A stretch of 64,000 nt of DNA, from NCBI GenBank assembly GCA_949317995.1, contig OX439044.1, forward strand, positions 31,382,733-31,446,732. Reading direction: 5' to 3'. Source of the DNA: Acholoe squamosa. Taxonomy: Eukaryota; Annelida; Polychaeta; Phyllodocida; Polynoidae. Each line of letters opens with the position of its first letter. Positions within the stretch are counted from its first letter, which is position 1. The notes beneath the pieces are model-generated. The model saw nothing but the letters and a program-made list of their open reading frames with translations, did not search any database and had not been told where the DNA came from. The position numbers were made by a program, and so were the translations under genes. Positions 39,172-58,042 of the stretch are shown here, in pieces.

Positions 39172-39250
39172 CGTCCTGACTGGAAGGGTCCCAGTAAAGC
39201 AAGTGCCGTGTGCAGTGTGCACTTTACACATGAGTGTTTTGACAACGTTA

Positions 39251-39569
39251 GGGAGTGATCATTTTTTAACAACAGGGGGGGGCTGGTGGATTTGCGCGCA
39301 GACGCGCGAAAAAAATTTCGACCCCCCCCTCTCGAGGGGGTTAAATTTTTTCGACCCCCCCCATAAGGGACAAAAATCACGCGCGAACGTCCCCTTTTAG
39401 CCTATAGTAACGCGCGGGGTTTTCCACTGAAAACAGGTGAAATTATTTTGACCCCCCCCATCAGAGGTATTGAAAAAATTCTGACCCCCCCGGTCAAGGG
39501 GTTGAAAAAATTCTGACCCCCCCCTCAAACCCACCGGCCCCCCCCTGTTGTTAAAAAATGATCACTCCC
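39251..39569. mobile_element. C/G-tract MITE, copy 2, inside the THAP exon
   Basis: Body GGGAGTGATCATT ... AATGATCACTCCC, flanked by TTA on each side (39248-39250 and 39570-39572). Nearly identical to copy 1 at 35.5 kb. It interrupts the THAP domain between D-N-V and T-Y-V-V. Confidence 0.8.
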
Positions 39570-39781
39570 TTACCTATGTTGTAAACTGTTCCCTTGGCCA
39601 TGACCCACAACACAAACGTCAACTACTCTCTACTGCCATTCCAACGTTGTTTGGGGAGAGGAAAGGCAATTATAGGCAACAATCTCTCCAAGGGATTGCA
39701 GTCAACAAAAATGGACAGGAAGAGGGTAAGTTTTTTTTGGTTTTATTTTGAGAAATGGGTAAACAGACTCACCACTTTCAT

Positions 39782-39852
39782 TACCTGCTCTCTCTCTCTC
39801 TCTCTCTCTCTCCCTCTCCTTCTCTCTCCCTCCCTCCCTCTCTCTCTCTCTC
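39782..39852. repeat. CT-rich microsatellite
   Basis: Mostly (CT)n with CCCT variants. It doubles as the polypyrimidine tract ahead of the CCAACAG acceptor at 39862. Confidence 0.85.
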
Positions 39853-39862
39853 ACTCCAACAG

Positions 39863-39891
39863 AATGGAGAACTTCTGTAATAGAGATTTAA
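39863..39891 (+). CDS. Possible last exon of the THAP gene
   Basis: After CTCCAACAG, the phase-1 entry that matches the donor at 39725 gives eight further codons (W-R-T-S-V-I-E-I) and TAA. A very short terminal exon is plausible but weakly supported. Confidence 0.35.
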
Positions 39892-40115
39892 AACAATTTA
39901 AACAGCAAGCAACCCTGGAAACAAGGAACAAGATTTTCACCATTTTGACACGAGTAAAAGTGGTGAAAATTTGGTGTGCAGAGAACCTCATAAATTCTTG
40001 TGTATTTCATGTGTTTTTCACATCTTAACCCACACATGGAATTCACGTAAATTTCCCATGAATTCATGAAAATAACATGTTTTATGTGAATACATGTGAT
40101 CGATTGCTCACTAAG

Positions 40116-40434
40116 GGAGTGGTCATTATTTATCAACAGGGGGGGGGGTGGTGGGTTTTCGCGCGGACGCGTGAAAATTTTTTACGCCCCCCCCTCAACG
40201 GCAGTAAAAAAAATTTGTGCCCCCCCCGCGCCGGAGGCGCGGAGAGTTTTCGCGCCCCCTCTTTGATCTATAGTAGCGCGCGGGCTTTTTTGCTAAAAAG
40301 AGGGTAAATTTTTTTAGCCCCCCCCTCAAGAGGGGTCAAAATTTTTTTAGCCCCCCCCTCGAGAGGGGTCAGAATTTTTTACGCCCCCCCCTCAAACCCA
40401 CCACCCCCCCCTGTTGATAATAAATGACCACTCC
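40116..40434. mobile_element. C/G-tract MITE, copy 3 (variant subfamily)
   Basis: Body GGGAGTGGTCATTATTTATC ... GATAATAAATGACCACTCCC flanked by TAA on both sides. The interior has CGCGCGGACGCG and TCTATAGTAGCGCG words shared with the copy at 61.06 kb in the opposite orientation. Confidence 0.75.
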
Positions 40435-40687: not shown

Positions 40688-40949
40688 TCACGTACAGGCC
40701 TTCGGCCATCTTTGCTGAGCGTGTCCCAGATATTGGACACTAGGAGCAAGAAAGGAGCACTTCTCCTTCTTGATTTGGATGTTACAATCGCTCAGTCTCT
40801 GGAATACCAGCTCGAGTCGCTTTAAATGCTCATCTCTGGTTGGGGCGGTGATGAGAATATCATCGATATAACAACAAACTCCAGGAATCCCTTGCAGGAT
40901 CTGATCCGTGATCACCTGGAATATGTGTGGAGCTGTTTTTACACCATAT
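40688..40949 (-). pseudogene. Reverse transcriptase relic of another Ty3/gypsy element
   Basis: The minus strand encodes about 85 residues with Y-G-V-K-T-A-P-H-I-F, then Y-I-D-D-I-L-I, then F-L-A-P-S-V-Q-Y-L-G-H: RT motifs at normal spacing. The frame continues on the far side of the 17-kb insertion at 58047-58085 (just upstream of the Y-G-V motif) before an in-frame stop. Its motif residues differ from those of the inserted element (F-G-M-K, Y-L-D-D), so it is a different family. Confidence 0.75.
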
Positions 40950-41672
40950 TGTTTTGTCATCAATAGCCAATAATTATAATGAACGGGTATAACAGGGTAC
41001 ATTTGTGTAGGTATTTATTGTATGCTGCATTATGTGTGTATTTATTATATGCTATATGGGAGAGTGCTATGGGAGTCCTGTATAGGGTTTATGGTAGTAT
41101 AGAGTTTATGGTAGGCTGTGGAATGTGTAGACGGAGGGGAGTCGTCGAGATCTGGTCAGGTAGATTCTGTAGAGGGGGAGGGGGGAATACGGGTGAGCCA
41201 AACACCGGCGTCTGAAAGGTGTGAGGGGTGGGTAAGAGATAGGGAGGAGTTAGTATTGTGGGAGCAGCCGAGGAGGCAACACATACTCCTGGAGTAGACG
41301 AGGATGAAGCCGTTTAATATTTAGTATTACACTTAGCCAATGTAAGAACGGATTGAGCAGGATCTCTATGGCACTTATACCTCTCCAGTAGCATCGGATT
41401 GTTAAACATGAACTGCTTGTATGAATAGACTGATGTCGTTGAAGCTGTACAACCATGAGTGGACTCATCATCAGCTGTAACTGTGAATAACCAATGAACA
41501 ATAAATGGTGACTTGTATCGGCGTCTTGGTGTTGGTTAAAAGGATGGGCTGAGCCAACATCATACCACTAGAGTTAGTCTTCCCAAATACGTGAGAATAG
41601 CGGAGTGAGCTGATAATAACTACACAACTTATACCACATTAATATACATATAAACACAACCCACACAGCCCA
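40950..41672 (+). repeat. 5' LTR
   Basis: Starts TGTTTTGTCATC and ends CACACAGCCCA. Identical to 57320-58042. A polyadenylation signal AATAAA lies at 41500-41505, about 170 bp before the end, which would place R near there. A clear TATA box is not obvious. TATATGGG near 41053 is a weak candidate. Short frames within it are not genes. Confidence 0.95.
41500..41505 (+). promoter_or_regulatory. LTR polyadenylation signal AATAAA
   Basis: Canonical hexamer in both LTRs (also 57870-57875). The 3' copy would serve the genomic transcript. Confidence 0.6.
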
Positions 41673-41674
41673 GA

Positions 41675-41691
41675 TGGTGGAGAATTAGTGG
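41675..41691 (+). promoter_or_regulatory. Candidate primer binding site
   Basis: TGGTGGAGAATTAGTGG starts two bases after the LTR. TGG is the complement of a tRNA CCA end. The implied acceptor strand does not match a cytosolic tRNA I know, so the primer is unidentified. The gag ATG follows only 20 bases later. Confidence 0.5.
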
Positions 41692-41711
41692 TTGGGCTTA
41701 TCATTGTACTG

Positions 41712-44603
41712 ATGAGCGGCTCGCCGTACCCGATACCTAACAGCTCAGACGCTGGATGTGACTCAGCGGCATCGCCACACACTGACAGTAGTGACGGTGT
41801 GGAAGTCTATACTATCATACCTGCAGCGCGCACATTGCCTGGGAATGCAGCAGTAGCACATAGTGGTGTAGCAGAGGGACAGGGTGGAAGATCCGAAGTG
41901 AGTGAAGCGGGACCTGATCAATCACGTGTCACTCTTAGATCGGATCACACACATGTGCATGTGCAATTAGGACCCAGGTCGCAAGTGGTGCTTTTGCCTG
42001 GAGAGGTGGTGTCTAGAGAGATTGGATTCCCCGTGGCTCGGTCAGAGGAGGAGCGGGCGTCGTCTCAAAGGGATCCCAAGTCTGGGGGGACGTCTGGCCT
42101 ACAATTGTCTACTGCGGCTGATTCTGAACCAGCAGGGTCGGTGGTAGTGGACGATACCTCTGGACCATTCTCAGCATTGGGAGTGGAGAACGAGCATCAG
42201 TCATCTGCGGCAGAGTCGGAGACCAGGGCTGATATTTCTAGTGATGGGCAACAGGCGGCGGTTCAGGAGCACACAGTGAGTGCTGATGCAGGGGAACGGC
42301 CTGATAATCTCTGCAAAGGATGGACGACAGGAGACAGATTAGTGAATTATAAGTATTTTTCGACGCCCATTGCTAGGAGCTCCAGTATTAATTTCTGTAA
42401 GGCTACTCCTAGGTGCCTTGAGTTTGAGGGTACAGCGGACCAGGGACAAGTCAGACGCGCATCTGAGGGGGATGTGGCGGATATTGGTGATGAGGATTTG
42501 AATTTTGAAGCGATTGCAACGTCATTGGGGTTAATTGAGCCAGTACATGAAGACGGACAGGTGGATGAGAGTGGAACAAAGGATAGTCATGAGAATGAGG
42601 GGGACGCACATGGGGAGAATGATTCAGTAGAAGGGGCGTCTATGGTGGTGGCAGTGCCAGGGCAAAGCGAGGACGTCGGTGAGAAGATACAGGAACAGGG
42701 GTCGGAGGCCTGTGGTGATTCACAAGGGGGGAGTGCAGGATTGCTACCGTCTGGTTTCTTGGTGGTTGTTGAGAATGGGAGAAAGTTAAGTGATAGAGAC
42801 TTGGTGGGTCAGGATGAGACTGGTGGAGTTGGACAGGATTGGACAAGCTGTACTACACCGGTTGTTACAGGTGATCGAAGTGGCAGTCGTCTGGGAGAGT
42901 CTGTGAGTAAAACAAGGGTGGATGAAGTTATTACAGGTCTGCAGAACACTAATATTAGGGTACGACAAAGCATAGAGAGGGGGAGGGCCATATTGGAACA
43001 GGAGCTGAGATATCGGCAGGCCATTGATGGGGAGGAGCCGCCCGCGAGGCCGGAGATAGACCGGGAGCGTGTAGCACGAAGGGAGAGATTTTTGAACGAC
43101 ACTGTAAATTGGAGGAAGGTAACTGCGAATATCCGCTCAGGCAATAGTACAGGTCGTACTACAGATGAGGGGCATTTAGATGATGTTCTAAAAAGCCATC
43201 TTCAGACTGATGTTTCGGGTGACTGGGAGGATTGGTGGGTTCGGAGAGCGGGTGAAGAGAGAAGACGACAGATAGAAAGGGAGGCCCGGGAGGAAGCCGC
43301 CGAGGGCTACGTAGCTGGAGGTGTTGGAACTGGTGTACAGGGGAACGATAGTGAAGAGAGCTCAGTGGGTGATTTGGATGCGGAGAAACAGGTGGAGGAG
43401 GATATTGCACCTATTATTGGTTCTGAAGACGACGACATGGCGCCTAGTCCGAATGTTAAACTACCATCCTTCAATGGGGAGCCTGGGGAGGATTATCGGA
43501 GATATTTCAAGGAATTGAATGGAATGCAAAAGCTATTTGGATGGTCTCCGGATCAACATCTTGAGTATGCAAAATTGGGCTTGAAGAAGGGGGCATCGAA
43601 ATGGATGGATGGTATTCCAGAGGGGGAAAAGGATACTTTGGACAAAGTAGTGGCTATAGTGAAGAGGGTTTTTGAAGACAAAAGGCCACTGTGGCAGAAA
43701 CATAGGGATTTGCACTGTCTGAAGCAGGAAAAGGGACAGTCGGTCTGGGACTTCGCATTGAAAATAAAGGAATATGATGAGTTGGACGTTCCTGATGTCA
43801 TCAAGCTGTCAGTCTTTGTGGGGGGTTTGCTTCCGCCCATTGATAAGGACCTGATGAAACACAATGCTGATTCTTTTGAAGAGGCTCTCAGACTGGCGTC
43901 TTATTGGGAAAATGTGGAGAAAGGAAGGAACTCCAAAGGTGTGGCGCAGTTACATATGCTAGAGTCTGAGGGGACTCGGGATGGAGCATGTGGGGACGAT
44001 CAATTCGATCCTAAAGAGTATGCTAGGGAACAAACTAAAGCAGTGGTGGAGATGTGCACTATGGAATATAGACGGGGGCTCAGAGAGATGGAACATGGAC
44101 GGGAGAATCAGCAGGGACAATATGCTGGAAGGGGTGGTAACTCACGAGGGCAGTATCAGGCGCAGGCGGGCAGAGGGACCGGCGCGGGAACATATGGTCA
44201 GAATAGACAGTTTGGTGCAGGCGGTGGAGGTCGAGGATGGAATTATCAAGGGGGACGCGGTGGAAATCAATATAACGCGTCTCAGTATTTCAATAACAGG
44301 TTTCAAGGACAGAGATACACAGGAGGAAGCAGGCAGGGACAACAGGGGGATGATAAAGGTCAGAGAAGAGCACAGGAATATGCTAGGATGATGGGAGATG
44401 TAGGAGAGAGTCAGAAAGGAGGAGGAGCGATCTATTGTTTGATTCATGACTCTACTACACATTCTACAGAGGAGTGCACGTTTTTGAAGAAATACAGGGA
44501 TCAGCTGTCATCCTCTCAGCAGAACAGAGACCTGCGGGATCAGGGAAATGATGTTCGCAGGCCGGGAAACGGGCACAACGGCTCATTCCTACCCCAGAAT
44601 TAA
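41712..44603 (+). CDS. gag: Gag polyprotein
   Basis: I start at ATG 41712. The frame is open a little further upstream (from GTG 41688), giving 963 residues from the ATG. Residues 1 to about 575 are acidic, Ser/Gly/Glu-rich and unlike any matrix domain I know. Residues about 579-735 (L-P-S-F-N-G-E-P-G-E ... W-M-D-G ... L-A-S-Y-W-E-N) form a Ty3-type capsid. An R-G-G/Tyr/Gln-rich region at about 806-880 and a C-x2-H-x4-H-x4-C knuckle near 908 should bind RNA. The stop TAA at 44601 is followed by pol in the -1 frame. Gag would assemble the particle and package RNA. The long acidic N-terminus is unusual. Confidence 0.93.
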   Translation: MSGSPYPIPNSSDAGCDSAASPHTDSSDGVEVYTIIPAARTLPGNAAVAHSGVAEGQGGRSEVSEAGPDQSRVTLRSDHTHVHVQLGPRSQVVLLPGEVVSREIGFPVARSEEERASSQRDPKSGGTSGLQLSTAADSEPAGSVVVDDTSGPFSALGVENEHQSSAAESETRADISSDGQQAAVQEHTVSADAGERPDNLCKGWTTGDRLVNYKYFSTPIARSSSINFCKATPRCLEFEGTADQGQVRRASEGDVADIGDEDLNFEAIATSLGLIEPVHEDGQVDESGTKDSHENEGDAHGENDSVEGASMVVAVPGQSEDVGEKIQEQGSEACGDSQGGSAGLLPSGFLVVVENGRKLSDRDLVGQDETGGVGQDWTSCTTPVVTGDRSGSRLGESVSKTRVDEVITGLQNTNIRVRQSIERGRAILEQELRYRQAIDGEEPPARPEIDRERVARRERFLNDTVNWRKVTANIRSGNSTGRTTDEGHLDDVLKSHLQTDVSGDWEDWWVRRAGEERRRQIEREAREEAAEGYVAGGVGTGVQGNDSEESSVGDLDAEKQVEEDIAPIIGSEDDDMAPSPNVKLPSFNGEPGEDYRRYFKELNGMQKLFGWSPDQHLEYAKLGLKKGASKWMDGIPEGEKDTLDKVVAIVKRVFEDKRPLWQKHRDLHCLKQEKGQSVWDFALKIKEYDELDVPDVIKLSVFVGGLLPPIDKDLMKHNADSFEEALRLASYWENVEKGRNSKGVAQLHMLESEGTRDGACGDDQFDPKEYAREQTKAVVEMCTMEYRRGLREMEHGRENQQGQYAGRGGNSRGQYQAQAGRGTGAGTYGQNRQFGAGGGGRGWNYQGGRGGNQYNASQYFNNRFQGQRYTGGSRQGQQGDDKGQRRAQEYARMMGDVGESQKGGGAIYCLIHDSTTHSTEECTFLKKYRDQLSSSQQNRDLRDQGNDVRRPGNGHNGSFLPQN
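44564..44570 (+). promoter_or_regulatory. -1 ribosomal frameshift slippery site GGGAAAC
   Basis: In the gag frame it reads G GGA AAC, the X-XXY-YYZ arrangement used by retroviruses of the type-D group for gag-pro. The pol frame is open only from 44552, so this is the one position in the overlap where a -1 shift works. A possible stem pairs 44588-44595 with 44615-44623 with one bulge, but the 17-nt spacer is longer than usual. Confidence 0.7.
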
Positions 44604-47600
44604 ATTTGATATCAGGGGATGGGTCGGGAAATAGGGGATCAAAAGACAAAGCGCCATGGCTGGTTCAGTGTATTATTGACGAGAATGCATACAGATGTTT
44701 GGTGGACACGGGCGCGTCTGATTGTTTTATAGCGCGGACAGTTGTGAGTAGTATAAGTGAGAGAGCAATTTGGGACAGGCAGCCATCTCAATTGGGGAAG
44801 GTGCGTCTGGGGGATAAAACATCATTACAAGTTTATGAGACGGTGCGACTGCAGTGTTTTATGGATGGTGCTTGCATATACTATGATTTTAATGTGGTGG
44901 ATTCACTGGCTTATGATATTGTGCTAGGACGTAATTTTCTGGTTGACGCAAGGGCACAGATTATAGCTATAGATGGAAAGGTACGTCTATTTACTGAGGA
45001 TCCGGTCTCAATTGAAGTAGCGGCGATTTTGGACCCATGGGAGGAAAGATTGGTGACGGTGAAAGGATGGGATGTTGCGGCTGAAAGGGTTGGAACAACG
45101 GTCTTGTTGAGACCATCTAATTTGGCGGTGGTAGCTGCGGATGGTGCGGTGAACTATGTGGGGAAGAAATGGTATATGAGAATTGCTAATCTCTCTGACA
45201 GGCAAGTGTATGTGGATACAACTGAGGTTATAGCATATGCGGAAGACATAGATGAACCGGAACTTAATTTGCTGGAGGTAATTGATACAGCTAATGTTGG
45301 CAGGGATAGAAAGGATGAGGCTCGTGAGATTTTGGCACGATGTAATGAAGAACGGCGGGAGAATGGTCAAGATGCTAGAGGAGGATCAAGACACCGGCAG
45401 GATCATCGGGACAATGGTGGGGGATGTGGCGTTTCTGCATTGAGTGAGCAGGAGAGGCTGGATAAAATTGAGAAGATCAGGGGCCTTGATTTGGGTGACA
45501 CTATGATGACGCCGGAAGAGCAGAGGGTATTCAGAGAAATGCTGGTGGTCAACATGGACACTATAGCATTTTCTATGAAGGAGTTGGGTCATTGTTCATT
45601 GGCTCCAATGAAAATAAGGGTCGATGAGTCCAAGGGTCCGTGTATGGCACGACCATACAGGTATTCTCCTCAGAAAATGGATATTATTGATGAACAGGTG
45701 AGGGAATTGTTAAAGTTGGGAATTATTGAGCCCAGTGACAGCGTCTGGAGAAGTCCGTTGGTGGTAGTGCAGAAGAAGGATGGAAAGGCTAGATTATGTA
45801 CAGACTATCGCATGTTGAATCTTATTACGGCGGATGACACATATCCTATGCCCACAGCCAGAAGCATGTTTTTGTATATGGCGTACAGAAAACCTATAAT
45901 CTTTACAGCCATGGATTTGCTCAGTGGGTATCATCAGTGCGATTTACATCATGACAGCAGGCAATATTCAGCATTTGAATCACCCTCGGGAGTTTGGCAA
46001 TGGACGAGGATGCCGTTTGGTATGAAGCAGAGCCCATGGCAATTTACTAAGATTATGTCATTAGCACTAGGAGGCTTAATACCACGTACTTGTCTAGCCT
46101 ACCTAGACGATATCATTATCTTTGATCCGGATGTGGAGAGCCATATTACTAATGTCGGCAGAGTATTGGCAGCTTTAGGTAAAGCAGGTTTAACAGTCAA
46201 GCCAGAAAAGTGTGAGTGGGGCAAAGCGGAAATCAAGTTTTTGGGGCACATTATTAATGCTGAAGGAGTGCAGACGCAATCTAAAGTGATCAGAAAGGTG
46301 CAGGAATTTGGCAGACCGTATAATGAACATACAACTAGGTCCTTTCTGGGGCTTTGTAATTATTACAGGAGTTTTATTCCTAACTATGCTGTTTTGTCGA
46401 TGCCTCTGAATAATTTGTTGAAAATCAAGGTGCCATTTAAGTGGACAGATGAGTGTGAGGTGTCATTCAAGAAAATACAAGCAGCATTAGCGAGCACACC
46501 GTTATTGGTACATCCAGAGATCGGGGGTCACTTTTATGTTTTAACAGATGCTTCGGATGGCGCGTGTGGAGCGGCCATCTGTGTAAAGAGGGATGGATTG
46601 CTGAGGCCGGTAACATATTATGGGTATACATTTACAAAGGCTGAAAGAAACTACACTATAACAGAGAAAGAAGGCCTAGCTGTTATAAGAGTATTGAAGA
46701 AATTTGAGGATATGCTGACGGGAGCTAAGATCACGATAATTACAGACCATCAACCATTAATACCTTTGCTTCAGCAAGCCAGTAAGGCTCCATCCAAAAG
46801 GTTGACTAGATGGGGTTTGGCAATGACTGACTTTGACTATGAGATCAGGTATGAGCCGGGAGCCACTCACTACCTGCCGGATTTTATATCCAGAGTGCCG
46901 TTGGCAGTGGGACAGGATACACCTGGCGAGGAGTCGGGGGAGTTTGAGCCTGAGGTGGGATGTGAGTTACTCGTGATGGAACTGGTAGGGGAGGAATTGG
47001 ATAGGGAAACCTTCATTCAGGAGCAGTGGAAGGATGGATTCTGCAGGGGGATGATGAGATATTTGGCGGGAGATGAATTGCCAGTGGATGAGGAAAAGGC
47101 GCGAGGGATTTTACATAATGCTGATTTTATGGGTATGAAGGATGGATTGTTATGCAAGTATATAAAACCAGCTAGAAAGAGGGGTGGGCCTATAGCTGAC
47201 TTAAACCCAAGGATAGTGGTGCCTAAAGCTATGGTGAATAGAGTGCTCTATCTCATGCATGATGATATTATGTGCGGAGGACATGTGGGGACAGTGGCGC
47301 TGAATACAAAAGTACAGGCTCGGTTTTATTGGAAAAATATGATGGTGGACATAGCTAGGTACGTGCGGCTATGTGAAAGGTGCGCGTTGAGAAAAAGAGC
47401 ACCTCATTTTAGGGCCAAGGCAAGGTCATGGGATACGCCGGATTATCCATGGCAAGTGATACAGACAGATTTTGTTGGGCCACTACGTAGGTCCAAAGAA
47501 GGTTATAAATATATTATGACCTTCATAGACCTTCTGACGGGATGGCCGGAGGCATTCTGTACTAAAGACACGACTGCGCACACGGCAGCTGGGGTGTTTC

Positions 47601-48982
47601 TACGGGAGATCGTGTGTAGGTACGGCAAGGTGGAAGTGCTGTGCAGCGACAGAGGGTCTACATATATGGGTCAGGTTTTTCGTGAGGTTACAGCTAGATT
47701 ATCAACCAAACAGAGGTTTACGTCTTCTAGGAATCCGACCGGAAATGCCAGGGTTGAAAGATTGCATAAGTCATTAGAGGATACGATAGGATGCTATGTG
47801 ACCGAGGATCATGAACACTGGCCAGAACTGTTACCCATTGCATTGTGGACAGTGCGCTCCAATATCAGTATGAGGACGGGGTTCTCACCATATGCGCTAC
47901 AATTCGGGAGGGATCCAGTGGCTATGTCCTTTGCTGAGGAAAGGCCACTGCCTAAAGTGCCATCTGAGAGGGATTGGTTTCTTAGAACAAATCATAGCAT
48001 ACAGTTATTACAAGAGGCGGCCAACGCTCATACTGCTAGGTATGAGGAGCAGCTCAGACGTAGATTGGATGGACGGGCTCGACCTGTATCTTTTATAGAG
48101 GGGGAGTGGGTATATTACTATGATCCGAAATGCGCGGTGAATAATACATCGAAGTTTGCTGGTAGATACACAGGGCCACACAGGATAATAGAGGTGGTGG
48201 GGGATAACAGGGTGAGGTTGAGAGCAGTGAAGACGGGCAAAGAGATACCTCACTTAGTAAATGTGAATAAACTGAAGAGAGCATACAAAGGGGAGGGTGA
48301 AAATGGCGAAGGAGAAGCCAAAGATGAGAGAGCGGTGGAAGTGGATAAGTCAGAAGTGGAATTTCAAGTGGATAAAGAAGACATAGGACATGAGAACCCG
48401 AGAGGGGTGACTGAGGTGGAACATCCTTCATCTGGTCTGGAGGATACAGCGTTAGCGGGCGCTGATAAGGAGGACAAATTGAATACGTCAGACGACGATA
48501 GAAGTGCACATGAGAAAAAGAGAGAGGTGGCCGGAGCTGGACCGCGCGCACCTATACAGGAATCTGATAATGAGAAAGATGGAGTTGTACGGCGAGATAG
48601 CCGGGAGAAGCACAGGCAGGAAGCTGTGGTCGATAATTGGTGTAAAAAGAAAGGGTTACAGGATAGTGATATTGATAAGGTCGAGGGTGGCCGAAGACAG
48701 GATAATGAAGAGAAAAAGAAGGGTAGAGTGAGAAATGTTGAGGTGAAGAGGCAGATGGACGAAGACAGAGAGAGAGAAGAAATGGAGAGGAGACAGAAAA
48801 GAAAAGAGAGAGAGGATAGGGCTGAGAGAAGACGGAGGCAAAGAGATAGGAGAGCACAATTGGCTGCGGGGGCTATTATGAGTGAGGAATCTAGCAGTGA
48901 ACATATCATTCCAAAGGGACCGATTTGTAAGCATCACAGGAGAGGCAGAGAGGAGCTCAGCTCATCCAGCGATGGAGAATAG
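44571..48982 (+). CDS. pol: Pol polyprotein: protease, RT, RNase H, integrase
   Basis: Entered by a -1 shift; the first non-AUG frame start after gag would be TTG 44606, used here for numbering (1458 residues). Motifs in order: protease D-T-G-A-S about residue 34; RT with D-Y-R-M-L-N, F-G-M-K-Q-S-P and Y-L-D-D about 500; RNase H T-D-A-S-D about 646; integrase H-H-C-C zinc site about 884-930 and core D, D, E near 955, 1014 and 1050; G-P-Y/F-type module about 1185. All catalytic residues are present. Residues about 1235-1458 are a Lys/Glu/Arg/Asp tail with no recognised domain, absent from ordinary gypsy pol. The product copies RNA to DNA and integrates it. Confidence 0.95.
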
Positions 48983-49306
48983 GGCGAGCTTAGACGGGAT
49001 GCTACAGGATGGGCGATAATCCTGTAGTATTCACGTGTGTTGCTATGAGGGAGAAGGGGGGGTGATGCAGGTGCCGAAGGGGGAGGGACCGCCCGGAGGA
49101 GCAGGTCAAGCTGACTCATGCAGGTAGACGGAAAGGAGGGCGATACACAAAGAAAAGGGAAAAGTAGGGCAAGGTAGGAAAGGAGGGGAGGGGGGGAGAC
49201 CAGCGCAACAGGTATATGCAGGAGGAGATGCATCAGGATGTGGCAGTGCGCGCACAACGAGGGACGAGATAAGACCTCACAGTAAATAGCAGGTGCTGAT
49301 GGACGG
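48983..49306 (+). other. Spacer between pol and accessory block
   Basis: 324 bp of purine-rich sequence with no open plus-strand frame. Splice acceptors for downstream messages could lie here (AG follows several short pyrimidine stretches), but none stands out. Confidence 0.4.
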
Positions 49307-49894
49307 ATGGCAGATAGCTGGTACGATAGTGTTGGAGAACAGCAATACCAACAATACTATAATACGTGGATGATTCAAGACAACTATTGCAATAGCACTT
49401 ATAATGAAAGGAGCACAGTGTCTGCAGCAAGTTCAACAACAACAGAAACAAATGAAAAAGGATTTGGTGCGACTTCAACGTCAGGCCAACCAAGCTCAGC
49501 GCAAGAGCCAATACAGGTGGTGGAAGCAGCTCAAGCCGAGGTCCTGGTAAATCATCAGGGAAACATATGGGATAGCATACGTGACATCACTGTGGGACAG
49601 ACAGAATGGGAGTGGTTGTTGGATGCCACTCTACAAGGCACCGGTGGTATAATTAAGAGAGAGACTCAGACCACAGAAACAGCGACACAGACAGAACCAT
49701 CAATATTTTATAGTAAAGACGATGAATTTGTGCTGGATACATCAATCAGATTGGATGACATATTGATAGAAGAGTATTATAGTAGAAGACAAGTGACCTC
49801 AAGGCTCTGTCACATTTGTGGCAGAACAACAGCAACAGCGGCAGGAGCGGCCAAACACCTGGAACAGGTACATGGGATAAAACATCTCATATAA
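49307..49894 (+). CDS. Accessory ORF 1: C2H2 zinc-finger protein
   Basis: 195 residues from ATG 49307 (CGGATGG). The N-terminal half is polar and Gln/Asn/Tyr/Thr-rich. The middle has acidic patches and T-Q-T-T-E-T-A-T-Q-T-E. The C-terminus holds one canonical finger C-x2-C-x12-H-x4-H (C-H-I-C ... H-L-E-Q-V-H). The stop TAA shares its last base with the ATG of the next ORF. A DNA- or RNA-binding regulator of the element is likely from the finger. No retroelement accessory protein of this type is known to me. Confidence 0.75.
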   Translation: MADSWYDSVGEQQYQQYYNTWMIQDNYCNSTYNERSTVSAASSTTTETNEKGFGATSTSGQPSSAQEPIQVVEAAQAEVLVNHQGNIWDSIRDITVGQTEWEWLLDATLQGTGGIIKRETQTTETATQTEPSIFYSKDDEFVLDTSIRLDDILIEEYYSRRQVTSRLCHICGRTTATAAGAAKHLEQVHGIKHLI

Positions 49895-50379
49895 TGTCCA
49901 CTAGTGAGGAAGCGGGAAAGAGAGCACCATCTATAGTAAAGGCAGGGAGATATAGGGGACAACAGGTAGAAGACGCGCTGGATGCTATATATGGATTTGG
50001 ATATTCATTGCCGAAGGTATTCAGATACAATGGGGCGACGTTACAGGATATAGTAATGCAGAAAATATCAAAACTGAAATTGGACATCGCGAGATTGCCA
50101 AGATATTTGAGGGAACAAGTAAACAGACATCACTTTAAATATGGAGTAGGGAGTGTGACTAATGCATTCTTTTTCTCAAGAAAGTGTAGGAGGCATCGCA
50201 AGACTAGTAGAGGGAAACGATGCAGGCAGTGTAGACAAAGAGATGAAACTTGGGAAATGTTTAAACTGAAGCAAAAGGGAAAGCATATCACCCAAGGAGT
50301 ATTAACATCCGGGGTTAAAGACAATGAGACGACCCTGGAGGAGGAGGATGTAACTGAAAACTTTGATAAATATAACTAG
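49894..50379 (+). CDS. Accessory ORF 2: Cys/His/Arg-rich protein
   Basis: 161 residues. The ATG overlaps the stop of accessory ORF 1 in TAATG, the arrangement used for termination-reinitiation. The N-terminal 90 residues look folded (A-L-D-A-I-Y-G-F-G-Y ... L-P-R-Y-L-R-E). Then comes a dense basic zinc-like cluster: C-R-R-H, R-G-K-R-C-R-Q-C-R-Q-R. An acidic tail ends the protein. An RNA-binding or nuclear shuttling role is inferred from the Arg/Cys cluster. The frame is open 26 codons upstream of this ATG, but the overlap favours the start chosen. Confidence 0.7.
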   Translation: MSTSEEAGKRAPSIVKAGRYRGQQVEDALDAIYGFGYSLPKVFRYNGATLQDIVMQKISKLKLDIARLPRYLREQVNRHHFKYGVGSVTNAFFFSRKCRRHRKTSRGKRCRQCRQRDETWEMFKLKQKGKHITQGVLTSGVKDNETTLEEEDVTENFDKYN

Positions 50380-50469
50380 TAAGGATATGAGTTGATAGGA
50401 AAGAACAAAGGGACTGTACGGATATAAAATACAATACCTGTTAGGGGAACGTTGTGAGAGGTCGAAGAA

Positions 50470-50811
50470 ATGTACAAAATGGCAGGTATTAGTATAACGC
50501 CACCTACATTTAGGGGAGCACCAGGAGAGAAGATAGAAGAATATTTCTACGACATGGATCTGATTAAGAGAATATATGATCTAGGGGAAATGGAATATGT
50601 GGCATTATTATTGTGGGGAATGAAAGGTGAAGTGAAAACTTGGGTTAGGAAATTACCTGAGGAAAGTAAGAATACTGCATGGAAGATACAGCAAATAACC
50701 ATGGCAGTATTTGCAGCTCCAGATGCATGGAAAGAATGGGGTACAGGAGGAAAGAGACAGAAAAGACAGCGCGAGAATGACGGCGCGGAAACAGAGCCAG
50801 CGGGGGAATGA
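50470..50811 (+). CDS. Accessory ORF 3: mini-Gag (capsid N-terminal half)
   Basis: 113 residues from ATG 50470 (a second ATG at 50479 is equally good). Residues about 10-90 align by eye with the capsid of this element's own Gag: P-P-T-F-R-G-A-P-G-E against L-P-S-F-N-G-E-P-G-E, then Y-F, then L-L-L-W-G-M-K-G and W. Only the N-terminal half is present; a short basic tail (K-R-Q-K-R-Q-R) replaces the rest. The divergence rules out a recent copy. It may be a capsid modulator or dominant inhibitor, in the way truncated Gag forms act in other retroelements. This is a hypothesis. Confidence 0.7.
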   Translation: MYKMAGISITPPTFRGAPGEKIEEYFYDMDLIKRIYDLGEMEYVALLLWGMKGEVKTWVRKLPEESKNTAWKIQQITMAVFAAPDAWKEWGTGGKRQKRQRENDGAETEPAGE

Positions 50812-52030
50812 ACACGTGCGTGAGAAAAAAAAAAAGGGGGGGGGGAAGCGTTGGACACTGAGACAGGCATATGTATATTAATAGCATAGTATCAGAAAAA
50901 GGGGGGGGGGGAAGAGAGCAGACATGCGCAGGTAAAGAAAGAGATAAGATGCAATGACAAGCAAGACAGTTGGCAGTGCAGGAGTGGAACTCCAGCTGTA
51001 CAGACATCGGCAAGCAACAGATACAGACTGCATTCAAAAGTTTAACAAGATAGAACAACTAGCATGCTACGCGGACATAACCACAACAAGACAACACAAT
51101 CAGCAGTTTAGATAAGCTATAAACATGAGTTCTAGTGGAAAAGCCTGGATCATAGACAACGGAAGGTTCATAGCGGTTGAGATGAATTAATGGAGATCAG
51201 TAATAATTTACTGAAGGAAAGGAATCATCGCCCACTGTAGAGAGGGTAGAGATATTAAGGCTCAGATACACCCTACTCTATGGATAAGACTTAACTACTT
51301 AAAACAGTTTGTAGAAAATTGTAAAAGGTCGGATTCATTTAGGATGCATTCAATATAAAACATATTAGAAATACATACCTGAAGTGAAGATTTAAGGACT
51401 AGTAGGAGTAGAGGCATCATCATCATCAGCAGATGAAGCAGGAGAAGAACTGAAGATAGTAAATAAAGCAGGTATATGAGACAAAGAGAAAGAAGTGCAT
51501 CACATACAGGAGGCAATCACTATGGGACACCTTATAAGTTGTCTAAGGGTGAATGGAAACACTAGTCGGAACCAGCAGGACCATAGTCGCGACACACATA
51601 GAATGACTCCAGTAACAAGGTCCATAATTAAGAGGCCTAAATTTAAAGGATATATTTGTCCAGAAGTAAGGCATTCTGTTAAAGAACCAGAGCCTATAAT
51701 GGTTTAATTATTTAAGAAGCCCAGACTCTGAGAAATGAAATACGATGTCTATAGCTGTAGATATATATTCAAAAATAAGTGTGAGTGAAATTCTTTTCTA
51801 AGAAGGTATTAGGACACATAAAATTCAGCCATATGGGTGTATTAATGAGATCAATTATACACCTGAGACTGTGAATGTGATCGCCGCTACTCACAAATCA
51901 GAGGAGCTCAGCGACTTTATAGAGTTAGCTTATGCATATATTTTAAAAGAAAATATGTGTATAGTATCTTATTACAAGAACGAAGTGAGCGTCTCTAGGA
52001 ATCAAAGTATGAATCACTAGGGAAATATAC
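50812..52030 (+). other. Non-coding stretch of the accessory block
   Basis: 1.2 kb without a long plus-strand frame. G-runs occur at about 50833 and 50898. An AGTAAATAAAG stretch lies near 51457. One small frame (51519-51707) is listed separately. Confidence 0.45.
51519..51707 (+). CDS. Small ORF of unknown status
   Basis: About 62 residues from ATG 51522 (the frame is open upstream to 51495). It is basic and polar (R-S-I-I-K-R-P-K-F-K-G-Y-I-C-P-E). It could be a spliced exon of an accessory message or chance. No motif recognised. Confidence 0.2.
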   Translation, partial: TMGHLISCLRVNGNTSRNQQDHSRDTHRMTPVTRSIIKRPKFKGYICPEVRHSVKEPEPIMV

Positions 52031-53284
52031 TTACTTCTGCGAGAGGGTAGAAGCTGGGGAAGCCAATGTTGGAAGGATAGGACCTCCAAGATTAGAAGAA
52101 CGGGAGGCTTGTGGTCTGGCAGGAAGCTGATAGGGATGATGTCGCGTAGTGGTAGCAGATGAAGATGTCAAGAGAGATATGATGGTAGAAGAACTGTGAG
52201 TCAGTCGTGAGGAAGAGGCCATGGTGCTGGACTGACAGGTCAATGGTGAGAAGGGTGGATGTCCAGGTGAGATAGCCAGAGTACTCCAGAACGAGGGCGA
52301 CATTACTGGAAGGTGTGGAAGTGAAGCTGCAGTGGATGAAGATGAAGTAAACTGACCGGAAGTAGAAGAGGTCAGGGCCAGAGCGGGCGTATGTAGGCAG
52401 GAAGGCGGAGACCTAGGAGCCGAGGTGGCGCGGGCCTCTGCAGCTGGAGCAGCTCGGATGGTGATGTGAGGCATCCTTAGTGAAGATACAGCAGGAAACT
52501 GACCGGAAGTAGTGGTGCTGGTAGTAAAGGGACGAGAAGTAGCGGCAGAATAGGTAAATGTGGATGTTAGGGTTGTTCTGGACGTCAGGGGTGCAGTGGT
52601 GGCTAGCAAAGGTGTGTATGGTAAGGACGAAACACCGGAAGCAGCAGGAATGTGAGAAAGCACATTGTAGTCTACATATGAAGAGTGATGCTGAGGTGGC
52701 AATGGACGAGAAGTTGATGAAACAGCGAAGTTGGCAGGCAGAGAATATTGGTGGGAGGTGTCCACTCGTAGAGGAAGGGTCGCTGTGCAAGTTGGTAGCG
52801 CATTGGAGGTAAAGGTGGATGCGAGGCTTGGAGCAGAGGTAGCAGGCACTATAGCGCTATAGGTGGGACGCGCACCTATGGGCGACATCAGAGTGGGATT
52901 CCAAGGTGGCACGAAAGGAGTGGTAGGGTTGACTGGAGGCGGAGTGATGTCGACATAAGCTGGTTGATAAGCAGGAGTAGGAATAGGTGGAACAGCAGCA
53001 GTTGATTGCAGGCGGTAACTGGGATCGGGCATCCCATCCAGGTGGATGACGCGCAGTGTCATATCAGTCATGTTACAAGCTAAGCGTAGATGATCTCGAA
53101 TGGTGGTGTGTGAGGGCATGGTCGCGCCTTGCGGTCCGGTGCATACTAGCATGCACGGAGTAACGTTAGCATCTGTGGAGGACAGGTCTCTGCAGCCGAC
53201 GATGTAGGTGAAGCCGGGCTGGAGACGATCTATCGGGAGATAGACGAGTGCGCCATTGACAGAAACGCTGGAATAGCTAGCCAT
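52031..53284 (-). CDS. Antisense accessory ORF: N-terminal domain plus Ser/Thr/Pro mucin-like stalk
   Basis: 417 residues from an ATG at 53284 in strong context (GAAGATGGC) to TAA at 52031, on the strand opposite gag, pol and env. Residues 1 to about 100 look folded, with Cys at several places (V-G-C-R-D-L, M-L-V-C-T, L-A-C-N-M). The remainder is Ser/Thr/Pro/Ala-rich with many short repeats (T-S-G-Q-F-T/P), typical of extracellular stalks or disordered linkers. No signal peptide or membrane segment is evident. Codons end mostly in C, unlike the purine-rich genes of the element, and no long plus-strand frame competes. It points away from env, so a divergent promoter may lie at 53285-53695. Confidence 0.65.
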   Translation of the reverse strand: MASYSSVSVNGALVYLPIDRLQPGFTYIVGCRDLSSTDANVTPCMLVCTGPQGATMPSHTTIRDHLRLACNMTDMTLRVIHLDGMPDPSYRLQSTAAVPPIPTPAYQPAYVDITPPPVNPTTPFVPPWNPTLMSPIGARPTYSAIVPATSAPSLASTFTSNALPTCTATLPLRVDTSHQYSLPANFAVSSTSRPLPPQHHSSYVDYNVLSHIPAASGVSSLPYTPLLATTAPLTSRTTLTSTFTYSAATSRPFTTSTTTSGQFPAVSSLRMPHITIRAAPAAEARATSAPRSPPSCLHTPALALTSSTSGQFTSSSSTAASLPHLPVMSPSFWSTLAISPGHPPFSPLTCQSSTMASSSRLTHSSSTIISLLTSSSATTTRHHPYQLPARPQASRSSNLGGPILPTLASPASTLSQK

Positions 53285-53695
53285 CTTCAGTGCGAATAGG
53301 GTGGAAGTCAAGCATCGACTGAGAATTTAATTCTAGGTATCTAACCAAAGGGGATGGGAAGTTGAAATAAGAAAACAAAAATATAGTGAAAACTATAGTA
53401 AAAAAAAAAAATTTGAGGGCACATTAGGAGGAGTCGCTGAGACAAAGACTCCAATCCAATAAATTGGTGTTATCAGATGGAAGAGACGTACAGCTAGATA
53501 GGAGAGGAAGGCACACGTGTTCAGAGTGACGGGAAAATATATACAAGAAGGGGTAAAAGGGTCATGAACTGGTGAACTATCTGACACGATAGGGCTTATT
53601 AAGTGTTCAAGATCCATAAAAAATTCCAGGAGCGATCAGTTAGGAGTCGTAGTAGCCCAACTCGAACTGTAACCGGAAGCCATAATAAGAAGGAA
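53285..53695. promoter_or_regulatory. Divergent intergenic region between antisense ORF and env
   Basis: 411 bp with A-runs near 53400 and an AATTCCAG acceptor-like site at 53629 that could serve a spliced env message. No TATA box is convincing. Function inferred only from position. Confidence 0.35.
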
Positions 53696-56452
53696 ATGGC
53701 GTGGCTAACTATACTATGTGTCTTATGTTCCTTGTGGGGTGTGGTAGATGCTGGAAGGCACACTTTCGAGACTTTAGAGAGAGCCGAATTAGGTGTCATT
53801 TTGCAACCTGGTAGACGTATTTCTACGGCTGAGCACAATCATGTGTCACAAGTGTTTGTATTAGAGATACCAGATAGATTACCAGAGCCGGAAATGGAAA
53901 GTATTTATGAACAATGTGTGAAGAACATGCAGGTTATGTGTGATATTCAACATCATAACAGAACCTTATTATTTGAAGATACCTGTGACAACATCAAACA
54001 GAAAGAAGAATGGTTGAATCAAATTATTAGAAAATTAATACAGGCCAGAGAGGAGGAAGTGGAAAAGCTGATGGAAAACATACCTGAACAACAACAAGTC
54101 AAAAGATCTAAGAGAGCAGGTATACCAGGTCTAAATATTATAGGAGAGTTGTCGTACTATATTTTTGGCACTGGGAGAGCTGATGATGTAGCCAGAAATG
54201 AAAAGGATATTCAATTACTGAAGACATCATATTATAAGATGCGTGATGTTATTAAAACATTGGCCACAAGTACTAGCAATGGCTTGGAGGACGTCATGGC
54301 GGAAGTGGGAGAGTTGGCTGATAGACAGTTACAATTGTATGAAATGGCTAAGATATCATTGAAGAGACGGAAGTTGCTGGAAAGAACTCAAACTATGCAC
54401 AGTGTGGCATTATATGAACTATCCATTGTATACAACCATGAAAGCCTGCTGACAAGGGTCAAATGGGGGTATATTATACATTTATTAAATGAACTCATTG
54501 AGATAAAGGATATGGCAGCTGAGGTAAGATTGGCATCACGAAGAAAACTATCCTCAAAATTGGTCACTAGAGAAGATTTGAAAGAAGCTATAATCAACAC
54601 TGAAGTATATCTAAAGGCTACGTACCCACGATTTAGAGTCGCTTTTACTGATCCGGAATATTACTATGATAATAGTGTGGTGCGAGTATATCAGCACCAA
54701 GGTCGTGTAAAAATGCAGATAAGGATTCCGGTGGTGTCAGAGGAACACATATTTTGTGTATACTCTGTAAAGGTGTTTCCAGTACCAGTGCGGCTGGCCA
54801 ATAAAGAAGCTGACGGGACGAGAATAGAGGGATTGCCATCAGAAGTAGCCATATCAAAGAATGGGCGGTATTATATATCAGAGCCAGTGGTGAATTGGGC
54901 GCGTTGCCATGGCAACTCAATAGCAGTATGCCCAGATATTCCACACATGAGAAAAATAGCCGAGCGAGGGTGCATGGCGGCACTAATAAGAAATGACAAG
55001 GTGGCCATAGCAGAAACATGTGAGATCAACTATATAGTGCAACCAAATTTTCCTTCATTTGCGATAGCACTGGGAAAGGGTCGTACTTTGGTATCGGGAC
55101 CCGACATACAAGGTCAATTGATGTGTCAGTCAAGCCCACCTGTTAAGGTGAACATGCATCATTACGCCATATTGAACATTGGGTGTGATTGCGCATTCAT
55201 GACTGCCGGGGCGTGGATGCCTTACAGTTTGGCAGGATGTGGTCATGTGAACATGGAAACTAATGTGACTTTTGTAAATAACGATTTGCTACAAATGAAC
55301 AGCGTTAAGAAATTGACATGGATAAAGGCCGTATTAAATGGTGAAACTGTAGAGGTATTGCAAGATGAAGTGTTGCCAAAATTAGTAAAGACCAAAATGA
55401 AACACAAGGCTAGGATACAACAGTCGCCAGCAGCTGTCAATCTTAAGAATTTGGTGAGTGCAATGGAAGACGGATCGGCATTACCTGATTTGGATGGCAT
55501 GAGTGGTGGAGGCCATTTTCCTACTGAATCACTATGGGATTATTCACCAATAATGATTGCAGGGGTGATTGTTATGACTCTGATGGTGGTACAATATTTT
55601 TGTTTAAAAAGACTATTAATGGCATACATATTAGCAAGAATGCCTATGAGAATAAGGAGTCTAGAAACTTGGGACTATGAAAAATACGGTGAGGATGTCG
55701 AAGGTAATTATGAGGAAGAAGATCCGGAACACAAAACGACGATAGCTATGTTATCACTGATATTGATAGTGCTGATAATAATAATAGCGCTACTGGTGAG
55801 GAAGGTGCGACAACTAAAGAGGCTTCAACCAGTGGATGGACTGTATCTACAGGTGGCAACTAAAGAGATCACCGAAATAATACCATTGGGGGAGAGTCTA
55901 ATGCCTTTGGACCAGGTATTTCAAAGACCAGCAGAACAGGCTCTTATTAGAGACGTAGCAATAAGCTATTCGTGCCCGAAGTACATAGCTACAGTGCAGT
56001 GGGGTCGAGTGTTATATTCCACTGAGATGGCAACGGCGGAAAACGCAGTGCCATTGCCATTACCGGCCACTGTGAAGGTGTCAAAGAAGTTAGCAGGGAT
56101 ACTGAACGGTGACTATGGATTTACGGTGATGACAAGATTGATTAGGTATAGTGGGGGCCTGGCGACAGGTGTACCACTAGAGATACCTATGATATCAGCG
56201 GCGGGCTGGACACCAATAAGGAATAGAGAGATAAATACACATCAGTTATCTGACACGGGCCATGCCAGAGCCATGGCTCAGTTAAGAAGATCAAGACAGT
56301 TACCAGAAGTACCTGGAGAATCATATGGGGCTACGGCTGTATCATATTCAGTAAACAAGGGTCATAAAGAGTCGGTGAACGTGGCTTTGCGAGGTCAAGA
56401 GCCCAGGACGGGATCGTCATCGGTGTACGTGGACCTGAATGAAAGAGACTGA
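53696..56452 (+). CDS. env: F-type envelope glycoprotein with extended C-terminus
   Basis: 918 residues from ATG 53696 (GAAATGG). Residues 2-20 form a signal peptide (W-L-T-I-L-C-V-L-C ... V-V-D-A). A furin site R-S-K-R ends at 54115 and is followed by A-G-I-P-G-L-N-I-I-G-E and Y-I-F-G, the fusion-peptide arrangement of baculovirus F and errantivirus Env. Heptad-rich helices follow, then a Cys-containing ectodomain. Membrane segments lie at about residues 617-638 and 685-702, separated by an acidic loop, and 215 residues follow the second. Ordinary F-type Env has one anchor and a short tail. It should mediate membrane fusion of particles. Activity is not shown by sequence. Confidence 0.9.
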   Translation: MAWLTILCVLCSLWGVVDAGRHTFETLERAELGVILQPGRRISTAEHNHVSQVFVLEIPDRLPEPEMESIYEQCVKNMQVMCDIQHHNRTLLFEDTCDNIKQKEEWLNQIIRKLIQAREEEVEKLMENIPEQQQVKRSKRAGIPGLNIIGELSYYIFGTGRADDVARNEKDIQLLKTSYYKMRDVIKTLATSTSNGLEDVMAEVGELADRQLQLYEMAKISLKRRKLLERTQTMHSVALYELSIVYNHESLLTRVKWGYIIHLLNELIEIKDMAAEVRLASRRKLSSKLVTREDLKEAIINTEVYLKATYPRFRVAFTDPEYYYDNSVVRVYQHQGRVKMQIRIPVVSEEHIFCVYSVKVFPVPVRLANKEADGTRIEGLPSEVAISKNGRYYISEPVVNWARCHGNSIAVCPDIPHMRKIAERGCMAALIRNDKVAIAETCEINYIVQPNFPSFAIALGKGRTLVSGPDIQGQLMCQSSPPVKVNMHHYAILNIGCDCAFMTAGAWMPYSLAGCGHVNMETNVTFVNNDLLQMNSVKKLTWIKAVLNGETVEVLQDEVLPKLVKTKMKHKARIQQSPAAVNLKNLVSAMEDGSALPDLDGMSGGGHFPTESLWDYSPIMIAGVIVMTLMVVQYFCLKRLLMAYILARMPMRIRSLETWDYEKYGEDVEGNYEEEDPEHKTTIAMLSLILIVLIIIIALLVRKVRQLKRLQPVDGLYLQVATKEITEIIPLGESLMPLDQVFQRPAEQALIRDVAISYSCPKYIATVQWGRVLYSTEMATAENAVPLPLPATVKVSKKLAGILNGDYGFTVMTRLIRYSGGLATGVPLEIPMISAAGWTPIRNREINTHQLSDTGHARAMAQLRRSRQLPEVPGESYGATAVSYSVNKGHKESVNVALRGQEPRTGSSSVYVDLNERD

Positions 56453-57319
56453 AGGTGATGAATAAAACGCCATCATGATAGAGACTTGGCATAGACGGTG
56501 TCAGGACAAGAGAAAAGGGGGGGGGAGAAAGATATCGTGCAGCTGGCGTGAGACGAAAGGATGGAATAGACAATACAAAGACTGTCTACAAATGAATTGA
56601 TATAATGTCTGGGATTGGTGCCAGTGTATATTATTAAGTAAGATAATATAGCTAAAAGAAACTGTAATTTAAATGTACGACTAACTAATGAGACACTAAC
56701 TACGACGTAATGTAGCAAGTGAAAAGATTTCTGATGTATATACTCGTTGACAAGCTGTGCACGCGTGAGTTAAGTAAGAGGTTGCCAGGTGTAACCCAAG
56801 ACGCGTTAGAGTGTGTTTTAGAGTGATGCTTGGGGCAAAGGGTAGATAGAGGGGAACGTTTCGGAACAAGGAGTTGACAGATGTAAGGAGATTTATTGGC
56901 CCGATTGGGTGTAACTGGTGTCGACTCCCGGGTAAGGATAGTAAAAAGAATATATAAACATAGAATGGGACAAAGTGCTTAGTAAAGGCGAGTGAATGAG
57001 TAAAATAAATAACAAAGGAAAGAAAAACAAATTGAGAATCAAGGAATGAGAGAATTGTAATAATAAAATACATGTTAGAGGACAAGTTTGCGCTAAGAAT
57101 AAGTCACCAATGCAGTGTGGAAAATATATATAGTAATAATGCATGGTATTATATAAGTGTGTTGCATATGTATGTACATGAATAACTATTGAAATGTATA
57201 ATATGATAACGATGATTACCTCAGGTATTAGTGACAAAACAATACATAAGATGTATTCAAGCATAATTTATGCTTGACAATTGGTGTGACTCGCGTCACA
57301 AGAGGGGAGCGCCCGCACC
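56453..57319 (+). other. Untranslated region before the 3' LTR
   Basis: 867 bp. Overlapping hydrophobic frames on the minus strand result from purine-rich plus-strand sequence. Nothing else supported. Confidence 0.5.
57300..57309 (+). promoter_or_regulatory. Candidate polypurine tract
   Basis: AAGAGGGGAG ends ten bases before the 3' LTR. Polypurine tracts usually touch the LTR, so the gap is atypical. Confidence 0.45.
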
Positions 57320-58042
57320 TGTTTTGTCATCAATAGCCAATAATTATAATGAACGGGTATAACAGGGTACATTTGTGTAGGTATTTATTGTATGCTGCAT
57401 TATGTGTGTATTTATTATATGCTATATGGGAGAGTGCTATGGGAGTCCTGTATAGGGTTTATGGTAGTATAGAGTTTATGGTAGGCTGTGGAATGTGTAG
57501 ACGGAGGGGAGTCGTCGAGATCTGGTCAGGTAGATTCTGTAGAGGGGGAGGGGGGAATACGGGTGAGCCAAACACCGGCGTCTGAAAGGTGTGAGGGGTG
57601 GGTAAGAGATAGGGAGGAGTTAGTATTGTGGGAGCAGCCGAGGAGGCAACACATACTCCTGGAGTAGACGAGGATGAAGCCGTTTAATATTTAGTATTAC
57701 ACTTAGCCAATGTAAGAACGGATTGAGCAGGATCTCTATGGCACTTATACCTCTCCAGTAGCATCGGATTGTTAAACATGAACTGCTTGTATGAATAGAC
57801 TGATGTCGTTGAAGCTGTACAACCATGAGTGGACTCATCATCAGCTGTAACTGTGAATAACCAATGAACAATAAATGGTGACTTGTATCGGCGTCTTGGT
57901 GTTGGTTAAAAGGATGGGCTGAGCCAACATCATACCACTAGAGTTAGTCTTCCCAAATACGTGAGAATAGCGGAGTGAGCTGATAATAACTACACAACTT
58001 ATACCACATTAATATACATATAAACACAACCCACACAGCCCA
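57320..58042 (+). repeat. 3' LTR
   Basis: Identical to 40950-41672. Followed by ATAT, the target duplication. Confidence 0.95.

Follow-up and report, generated by a model that had tools for sequence, protein, structure and literature searches.

A window of 64,000 nucleotides from the polynoid annelid Acholoe squamosa (GCA_949317995.1, contig OX439044.1, positions 31,382,733 to 31,446,732 of the forward strand; positions below are those of the window) contains, at 40950–58042, a provirus of ~17 kb that is exactly bounded by paired long terminal repeats (LTRs). We consider it probable that this is a recent, env-bearing Ty3/gypsy provirus with four additional open reading frames (ORFs) kept open by selection, predicted to be regulatory or assembly-control genes resembling the accessory genes of complex retroviruses. 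The four extra ORFs are genes under selection and not passengers. Held somewhat less firmly, as more likely than not, is the broader reading that a Ty3/gypsy virus lineage evolved retroviral complexity independently, through a modular block with zinc-finger, RNA-binding and capsid-lobe genes and an antisense gene placed head-to-head with env, in which the antisense gene is old and its centre has been shuffled by recombination like that of a variable host-facing protein. An initial annotation of the window had described a four-ORF block between pol and env (zinc finger, Cys/Arg-rich, mini-Gag and antisense); all four frames were found, and all are constrained across copies.

Selection on the accessory block

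The block and the gap that separates it from env comprise the following features.

49307..49894, plus strand: ORF A, 195 amino acids (aa), acidic, with one C2H2 finger (ORF reading, copy comparison)
49894..50379, plus strand: ORF B, 161 aa, Arg-rich, with CX2HX8CX2C (ORF reading, copy comparison)
50470..50811, plus strand: ORF C, the mini-Gag, 113 aa, a predicted single capsid lobe (Gag similarity, fold prediction, copies)
50812..52030, plus strand: non-coding stretch of 1219 bp, the neutral control
52031..53284, minus strand: antisense ORF, 417 aa (431 stop to stop), with a conserved head and a remainder rich in Ser, Thr, Pro and Ala
52400..53200 (approximate), no strand assigned: mosaic variable stretch within the antisense ORF (200-bp bin comparison of copies)
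53285..53695, no strand assigned: gap of 411 bp from which the antisense ORF and env diverge, with TATATATT on the minus strand

The finger of ORF A is formed by a C-terminal CX2CX12HX4H motif, and ORF B starts on the stop codon of ORF A, with which it shares one base. The mini-Gag is 27% identical to the Gag of the element itself across 70 aa (E 6e-9) and, judged by this alignment, is of Gag ancestry. Its predicted model aligns with capsid lobes, the best match being the dArc1 N-lobe with lobes of p22 also among the matches, and the protein is predicted to consist of one capsid lobe without a nucleocapsid. A splice-site scan returned weak consensus sites only.

The assembly of the window (1.48 Gb, 63 contigs) was searched for further copies. 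The ORF A protein returned 258 candidate places; the 150 that were scored are all 99–100% identical, and 147 of them are free of stops. The block was then read in 44 copies, or 45 with the window, drawn from the ORF A ranking (three from the top of the list, 21 from the bottom, including three with a stop, and 20 from the part at 100%). Frames are intact in 42 (A), 43 (B), 45 (C) and 44 (antisense) of the 45. Across intact copies, the mean pairwise ratio of nonsynonymous to synonymous polymorphism (pN/pS) is 0.089 for B, 0.023 for C, 0.294 for the antisense ORF and 0.049 for A, the last value being biased because the ranking of copies used this ORF. For variants present in at least two copies, nonsynonymous to synonymous counts are 2:17 (A), 5:17 (B), 2:9 (C) and 90:122 (antisense), against a neutral ratio of 2.0 to 2.5. 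The deficit is smaller among singletons (11:14, 11:23, 3:10 and 54:53, respectively); that it is seen there at all, though changes after insertion should be neutral, may be explained by the counting of intact copies only or by singletons that arose before insertion.

Variable sites are distributed by codon position as 11/5/28 in A, 7/10/38 in B, 4/1/18 in C and 92/46/155 in the antisense ORF. The non-coding control, which lies between C and the antisense stop codon, gives 58/64/58 by phase (p 0.82). As the control is without phase and the antisense ORF has an excess at third positions, the variation tracks the antisense frame, and this phase control is the strongest single result of the analysis.

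A divergent subfamily (L057 and L067; C8:35.242–35.247 Mb) extends the comparison to a greater distance. All four accessory ORFs are open, the antisense ORF being 420 aa long, and nucleotide identity to the window is 87.8% for A, 93.0% for B and 96.5% for C. The values of dS and omega (dN/dS) between window and subfamily are 0.42 and 0.17 for A, 0.25 and 0.14 for B, 0.11 and 0.17 for C, and 0.59 and 0.24 for the antisense ORF. When 256 changes are placed at random, the antisense frame survives in 2 of 1000 simulations.

The Env relative P0001 was used as query in a survey of Env places, of which the 50 best among 4132 candidates were listed, and ORF A is found upstream of Env at all 50. At 40 places this was established by matching coordinate lists by eye at the expected distance, and at the remaining ten by sequence; A, B and C are present and intact in these ten, and the antisense ORF was read in one, the divergent subfamily at C8:35.24 Mb. 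The initial annotation had named copies that lack the block or carry it with random stops as the mark of passenger DNA. In the samples taken, which were picked through ORF A or through the best Env matches, the intact frames and the 50 Env places point the other way, and the conservation of accessory ORFs at a ratio below 1, for which it had proposed a test, is seen within the family (pN/pS 0.02–0.29) and against the divergent subfamily (omega 0.14–0.24).

The antisense gene, its age and its mosaic centre

The starts of the antisense ORF and env face away from each other across the 411-bp gap, in which the minus-strand TATATATT sits 259 bases before the antisense start; with its edges, the gap retains 89.5% identity with the divergent subfamily. 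A two-way control region shared by the antisense ORF and env is therefore plausible. Pfam assigned no family to the antisense protein at E up to 1. A protein-database search, covering the antisense protein and ORF B, returned no homologue of either; because this search requires shared 5-residue words, the negatives are weak evidence of absence.

A search of the genome with P0007, the most distant Env relative, as query (72 of 4114 candidates scored) identified further Env lineages, including F1, F2 and F3. At the F3 locus L068 (C11:48156000–48160600), the region upstream of env contains a two-finger C2H2 ORF of 184 aa, an antisense ORF of 343 aa that adjoins env, and open sense frames of 103 and 156 aa that are similar to neither B nor C; a frame there was read as the pol tail by its place and composition. 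Composition alone seldom yields a frame as long as the F3 antisense ORF, whose length was reached in 2 and 0 of 1000 simulations under two models. The heads of the F3 and window antisense proteins align from residue one (27% over 91 aa, E 2e-5), a match equalled by 0 of 5000 shuffles. The zinc-finger ORFs of F3 and the window agree in place and motif, with weak sequence similarity (E 0.010; equalled by 26 of 3000 shuffles). Pfam gave nothing for the F3 antisense protein at E up to 0.1. In the genome this protein gave 56 matches among 78 candidates, including 13 of full length at 81% or above, of which 11 are stop-free, and at 10 of 11 F3 env places (F3 assigned by eye) its gene precedes env and runs in the opposite direction. 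As F3 has a homologous antisense gene but neither B nor C in recognisable form, the env-adjoining antisense gene is old and the block modular; B and C are younger, or were lost in F3, or have diverged beyond recognition.

Comparison of 43 intact copies of the antisense ORF with the window separates 30 at dS 0.012–0.038 from 13 at 0.08–0.21. In the 30 near copies, amino-acid changes equal or exceed silent ones (for example, 11 versus 4), and the window's antisense copy is therefore little constrained at short range. For a mosaic scan, eight copies were picked and the block was cut into 200-bp bins, which differ from the window by 0–8%, mostly less than 5%. The bins at about 52400–53200 depart from this, differing by 10–25% in six of the eight copies over varying extents, with neighbouring bins at 0–3%; two copies are without excess. 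In three of the six mosaic copies, the odd segment is 3–13% from the divergent subfamily, from which the window differs there by 17–30% and the rest of the antisense ORF in the same copies by 11–29%. The closeness of these segments to the divergent subfamily indicates that they were imported in frame from it or from a near relative. In a fourth mosaic copy (L026), the segment fits neither the window nor the divergent subfamily. The segments were probably exchanged by template switching between co-packaged genomes, and their passage between subfamilies suggests that one particle had held different genomes.

An origin of the extra ORFs by chance, or as passenger DNA, on a purine-rich strand is scarcely credible. 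The composition of the sense strand does stretch antisense frames by chance, to means of 127–153 aa under six null models of 1000 simulations each; however, the longest simulated frame is 396 aa, and 431 aa stop to stop was reached in 0 of 1000 simulations under every model. Codon phase in all four ORFs and its absence from the non-coding control argue against this account, as do the low pN/pS values and the frames intact in 42–45 of 45 copies. It is also very improbable that a sense-strand feature (RNA structure, export or packaging element, or overlapping sense gene) keeps the antisense frame open incidentally. Sense RNA at 51900–52099, over the antisense stop codon, folds better than shuffles (z −3.7), which would suit such a feature, but folding windows from 52000 to 53200 within the ORF lie at z −1.1 to +1.4, and there is no sense frame above 84 aa opposite the antisense ORF. 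Moreover, the variation follows the antisense codons, and the similarity to the F3 antisense ORF is at the protein level. Across the block as a whole, 8 of 48 windows fold at z < −2.

Structural genes, termini and genomic setting

The remaining features of the provirus are listed below.

40950..41672, plus strand: 5′ LTR, 723 bp (identity with the 3′ LTR, TG..CA, ATAT flank)
41675..41691 (3′ limit approximate), plus strand: putative primer binding site, beginning with TGG
41712..44603, plus strand: gag, 963 aa, with a capsid match region at aa 585–654 and a C-terminal CX2HX4HX4C-like knuckle
44552..48982, plus strand: pol, with protease-like, reverse transcriptase (RT), RNase H and integrase regions and a long charged tail (Pfam, PDB matches)
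44564..44570, plus strand: GGGAAAC, predicted −1 frameshift site, in a phase that suits the gag and pol frames
53696..56452, plus strand: env, 918 aa, with an RSKR site, two transmembrane (TM) segments, a conserved tail and a C-terminal YVDL
57300..57309, plus strand: purine run, a possible polypurine tract, 10 bases 5′ of the LTR
57320..58042, plus strand: 3′ LTR, 723 bp (identity with the 5′ LTR)

The env-bearing Ty3/gypsy element of the initial annotation was confirmed at its stated limits, with LTRs, a Ty3-type pol and env, and the main frames (gag, pol in the −1 frame, and env) are all open, as it had maintained. The LTRs are the same at 723 of 723 bp, start with TG and end with CA, and an ATAT target duplication (4 bp) flanks the element at both sides; the insertion is likely to be recent. 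TGG are the usual first bases of a primer binding site, and no primer tRNA was matched to the putative site at 41675. Ten bases (CGCCCGCACC) intervene between the purine run and the LTR (57300–57319), where a directly adjoining run would be expected.

The pol frame is −1 relative to gag and opens at 44552, overlapping the end of gag. A hairpin 8 nt 3′ of GGGAAAC has a folding energy of −17.5 kcal, yet is on par with shuffles (z −0.8). Pfam recognises RVT_1, RT_RNaseH, Integrase_H2C2 and rve in Ty3/gypsy order, and a PDB search with pol placed Ty3 rows at the top (E 1.8e-92 and 1.7e-66), with the best retroviral-type row, which we take to be foamy-type, far behind (E 5.8e-37). By pol and ends, the element is Ty3/gypsy (Metaviridae); as its RT is Ty3-like and not retroviral, it lies outside Retroviridae. 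An assignment to the Troyka / Kuafuorterviruses was ruled out by the TG..CA ends, the 4-bp duplication and the RT catalytic motif YLDD, since these have CG..CG ends and a 3-bp duplication (PMC12440569) and IADD, VADD or LADD in RT (PMC11673190). Against PDB sequences, the capsid region of Gag matched dArc1 without significance (E 0.94), and a pol pattern search of viral contigs found no relatives. Antisense frames of 100–190 aa over pol are of the chance type, arising from the purine-rich sense strand.

Env has a signal-like N terminus and is 33–43% identical to seven Env proteins in ENA assemblies. Two TM segments are present in all six relatives that reach this region, together with a long conserved tail, and a Yxx[LV] C-terminal end was seen by eye in the window Env and in the five relatives with a complete end. 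An even TM count would place the YxxPhi tail outside, barring unusual topology. Pfam gave no family for the window Env at cut-off, and at E 1 none that matched more than two of eight Env members; the sequence matched only engineered repeat proteins in PDB (E 0.027–0.45), and a pattern search of viral contigs and genome contigs found no relatives. The predicted model is poor (predicted local distance difference test 45), with long helices after the RSKR site. Against PDB folds it returned nothing at E 0.001, the top rows being coronavirus spikes and paramyxo-/pneumovirus F, and in BFVD the same poor model matched chuvirus glycoproteins (E 7.6e-15), an abalone herpesvirus protein and baculovirus F (E 1.2e-9). 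Together, the helices and the BFVD matches suggest that Env belongs to the class I fusion proteins. Pao elements are known to have captured chuvirus glycoproteins (PMC7642597).

On the minus strand at 40688–41014, a YIDD-type frame stops at the 5′ LTR edge, and the element seems to have inserted into an older, decayed Ty3/gypsy reverse transcriptase. Similar segments recur around the element in both orientations (35452–35685, 39042–40307 and 61059–61389); their translations have GGGWW or NDHSL-like strings in common, and they are perhaps a short transposon family. Base skew is strong at 22001–24000 (GC skew 0.54) and 1–2000 (−0.33), probably simple repeats, and Cys-rich repetitive frames occur at 234–2141.

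Proposed roles and known systems

The roles proposed here, in transcription, RNA export, assembly control and antisense regulation, are read from sequence. Gag-Pol would be made by −1 frameshifting at GGGAAAC. The acidic, single-finger ORF A product may act on the element's own transcription. ORF B, an Arg-rich CHCC module on the stop codon of A, would be made through re-initiation or splicing and could bind unspliced RNA or mediate its export, in the way of CERV in Cer1. The mini-Gag, with one lobe and no nucleocapsid, may insert into lattices of Gag and adjust assembly or copy number in the manner of Ty1 p22. The antisense protein would be expressed from a minus-strand promoter in the gap shared with env, its presumed target being the host or latency, and Env, with its predicted class I fold and YxxPhi end, would carry the element from cell to cell.

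To our knowledge, errantiviruses carry only gag, pol and env. Elements such as gypsy and ZAM share with the present one the LTRs, gag, a pol with RT, RNase H and integrase, a furin-site envelope as third ORF and a 4-bp AT-rich duplication. An ordinary errantivirus is nonetheless unlikely. The Ty3-like pol, the AT duplication, the RSKR-cleaved Env and the matches of its low-confidence model to chuvirus and baculovirus F glycoproteins fit one, but the present element, at 17 kb, has four further genes under selection, one of them antisense, and an Env with a second TM segment, a conserved tail and no Pfam family at cut-off. A more serious alternative, which we nevertheless regard as the less probable, is that the mini-Gag is a structural helper (a minor capsid subunit or assembly aid) and not an inhibitor, and that host defence, and not the element's own expression, is the target of A, B and the antisense protein. 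Constraint is strongest on the mini-Gag (pN/pS 0.023; intact in all 45 copies); ORF A is near-unchanged at 150 scored places, which does not obviously suggest an element restrained by a self-inhibitor; the antisense protein changes faster than the other three and exchanges segments among subfamilies, behaviour common in proteins that face the host. Against a helper stands p22, which is among the structural matches of the mini-Gag and inhibits Ty1 (PMC4599808); between helper and inhibitor, the sequence does not discriminate.

For the favoured interpretation of regulatory and assembly-control genes, several systems offer partial parallels. Cer1 of Caenorhabditis elegans, also Ty3/gypsy, encodes a regulatory protein of its own, CERV, that is required for nuclear export of genomic RNA (PMC10309623). 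ORF B is a candidate counterpart by analogy; CERV comes from a spliced mRNA, whereas ORF B belongs to the accessory block and encodes an Arg-rich protein of 161 aa. The plant elements Retand, Grande and RIRE2 likewise have an antisense ORF between pol and the 3′ LTR, mostly with TRP28 (PF04195), and none of their sense ORFs is ENV-like (PMC11963269). The antisense protein here, in contrast, has neither TRP28 nor another Pfam domain, and a real env adjoins it. The predicted mini-Gag resembles Ty1 p22 as a free Gag capsid lobe without nucleocapsid; unlike p22, it is a separate, diverged gene whose best alignment is to the dArc1 N-lobe. Bdelloid rotifer LTR elements also have added ORFs, there ORF3s such as env, GDSL esterase and DEDDy exonuclease (PMC5408684), whereas the present element has four other ORFs plus env.

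Complex retroviruses have Tat and Rev in HIV, and Tax, Rex and HBZ in HTLV. The resemblance lies in several small genes by env, including a zinc-finger candidate, an Arg-rich candidate and an antisense gene; the Ty3-like RT sets the element apart, and no homology to Tat, Rev, Tax, Rex or HBZ turned up in the searches made. As a description of the gene plan, with four selected accessory ORFs beside env, the complex-retrovirus layout put forward in the initial annotation is fair. Among the papers listed by searches of an open-access library, no animal Ty3/gypsy element with the full gene set was recognised.

Accessory and antisense genes usually figure as hallmarks of complex vertebrate retroviruses. 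With four selected genes in a Ty3/gypsy provirus whose LTRs are identical, the rise of retroviral complexity becomes open to study beyond Retroviridae. An element that encodes both a full Gag and a separate capsid lobe provides a natural test of capsid-based self-regulation, and the recurrence of an env-adjoining antisense gene in a distant lineage raises the question of whether a common cause lies behind the origin or persistence of such genes.
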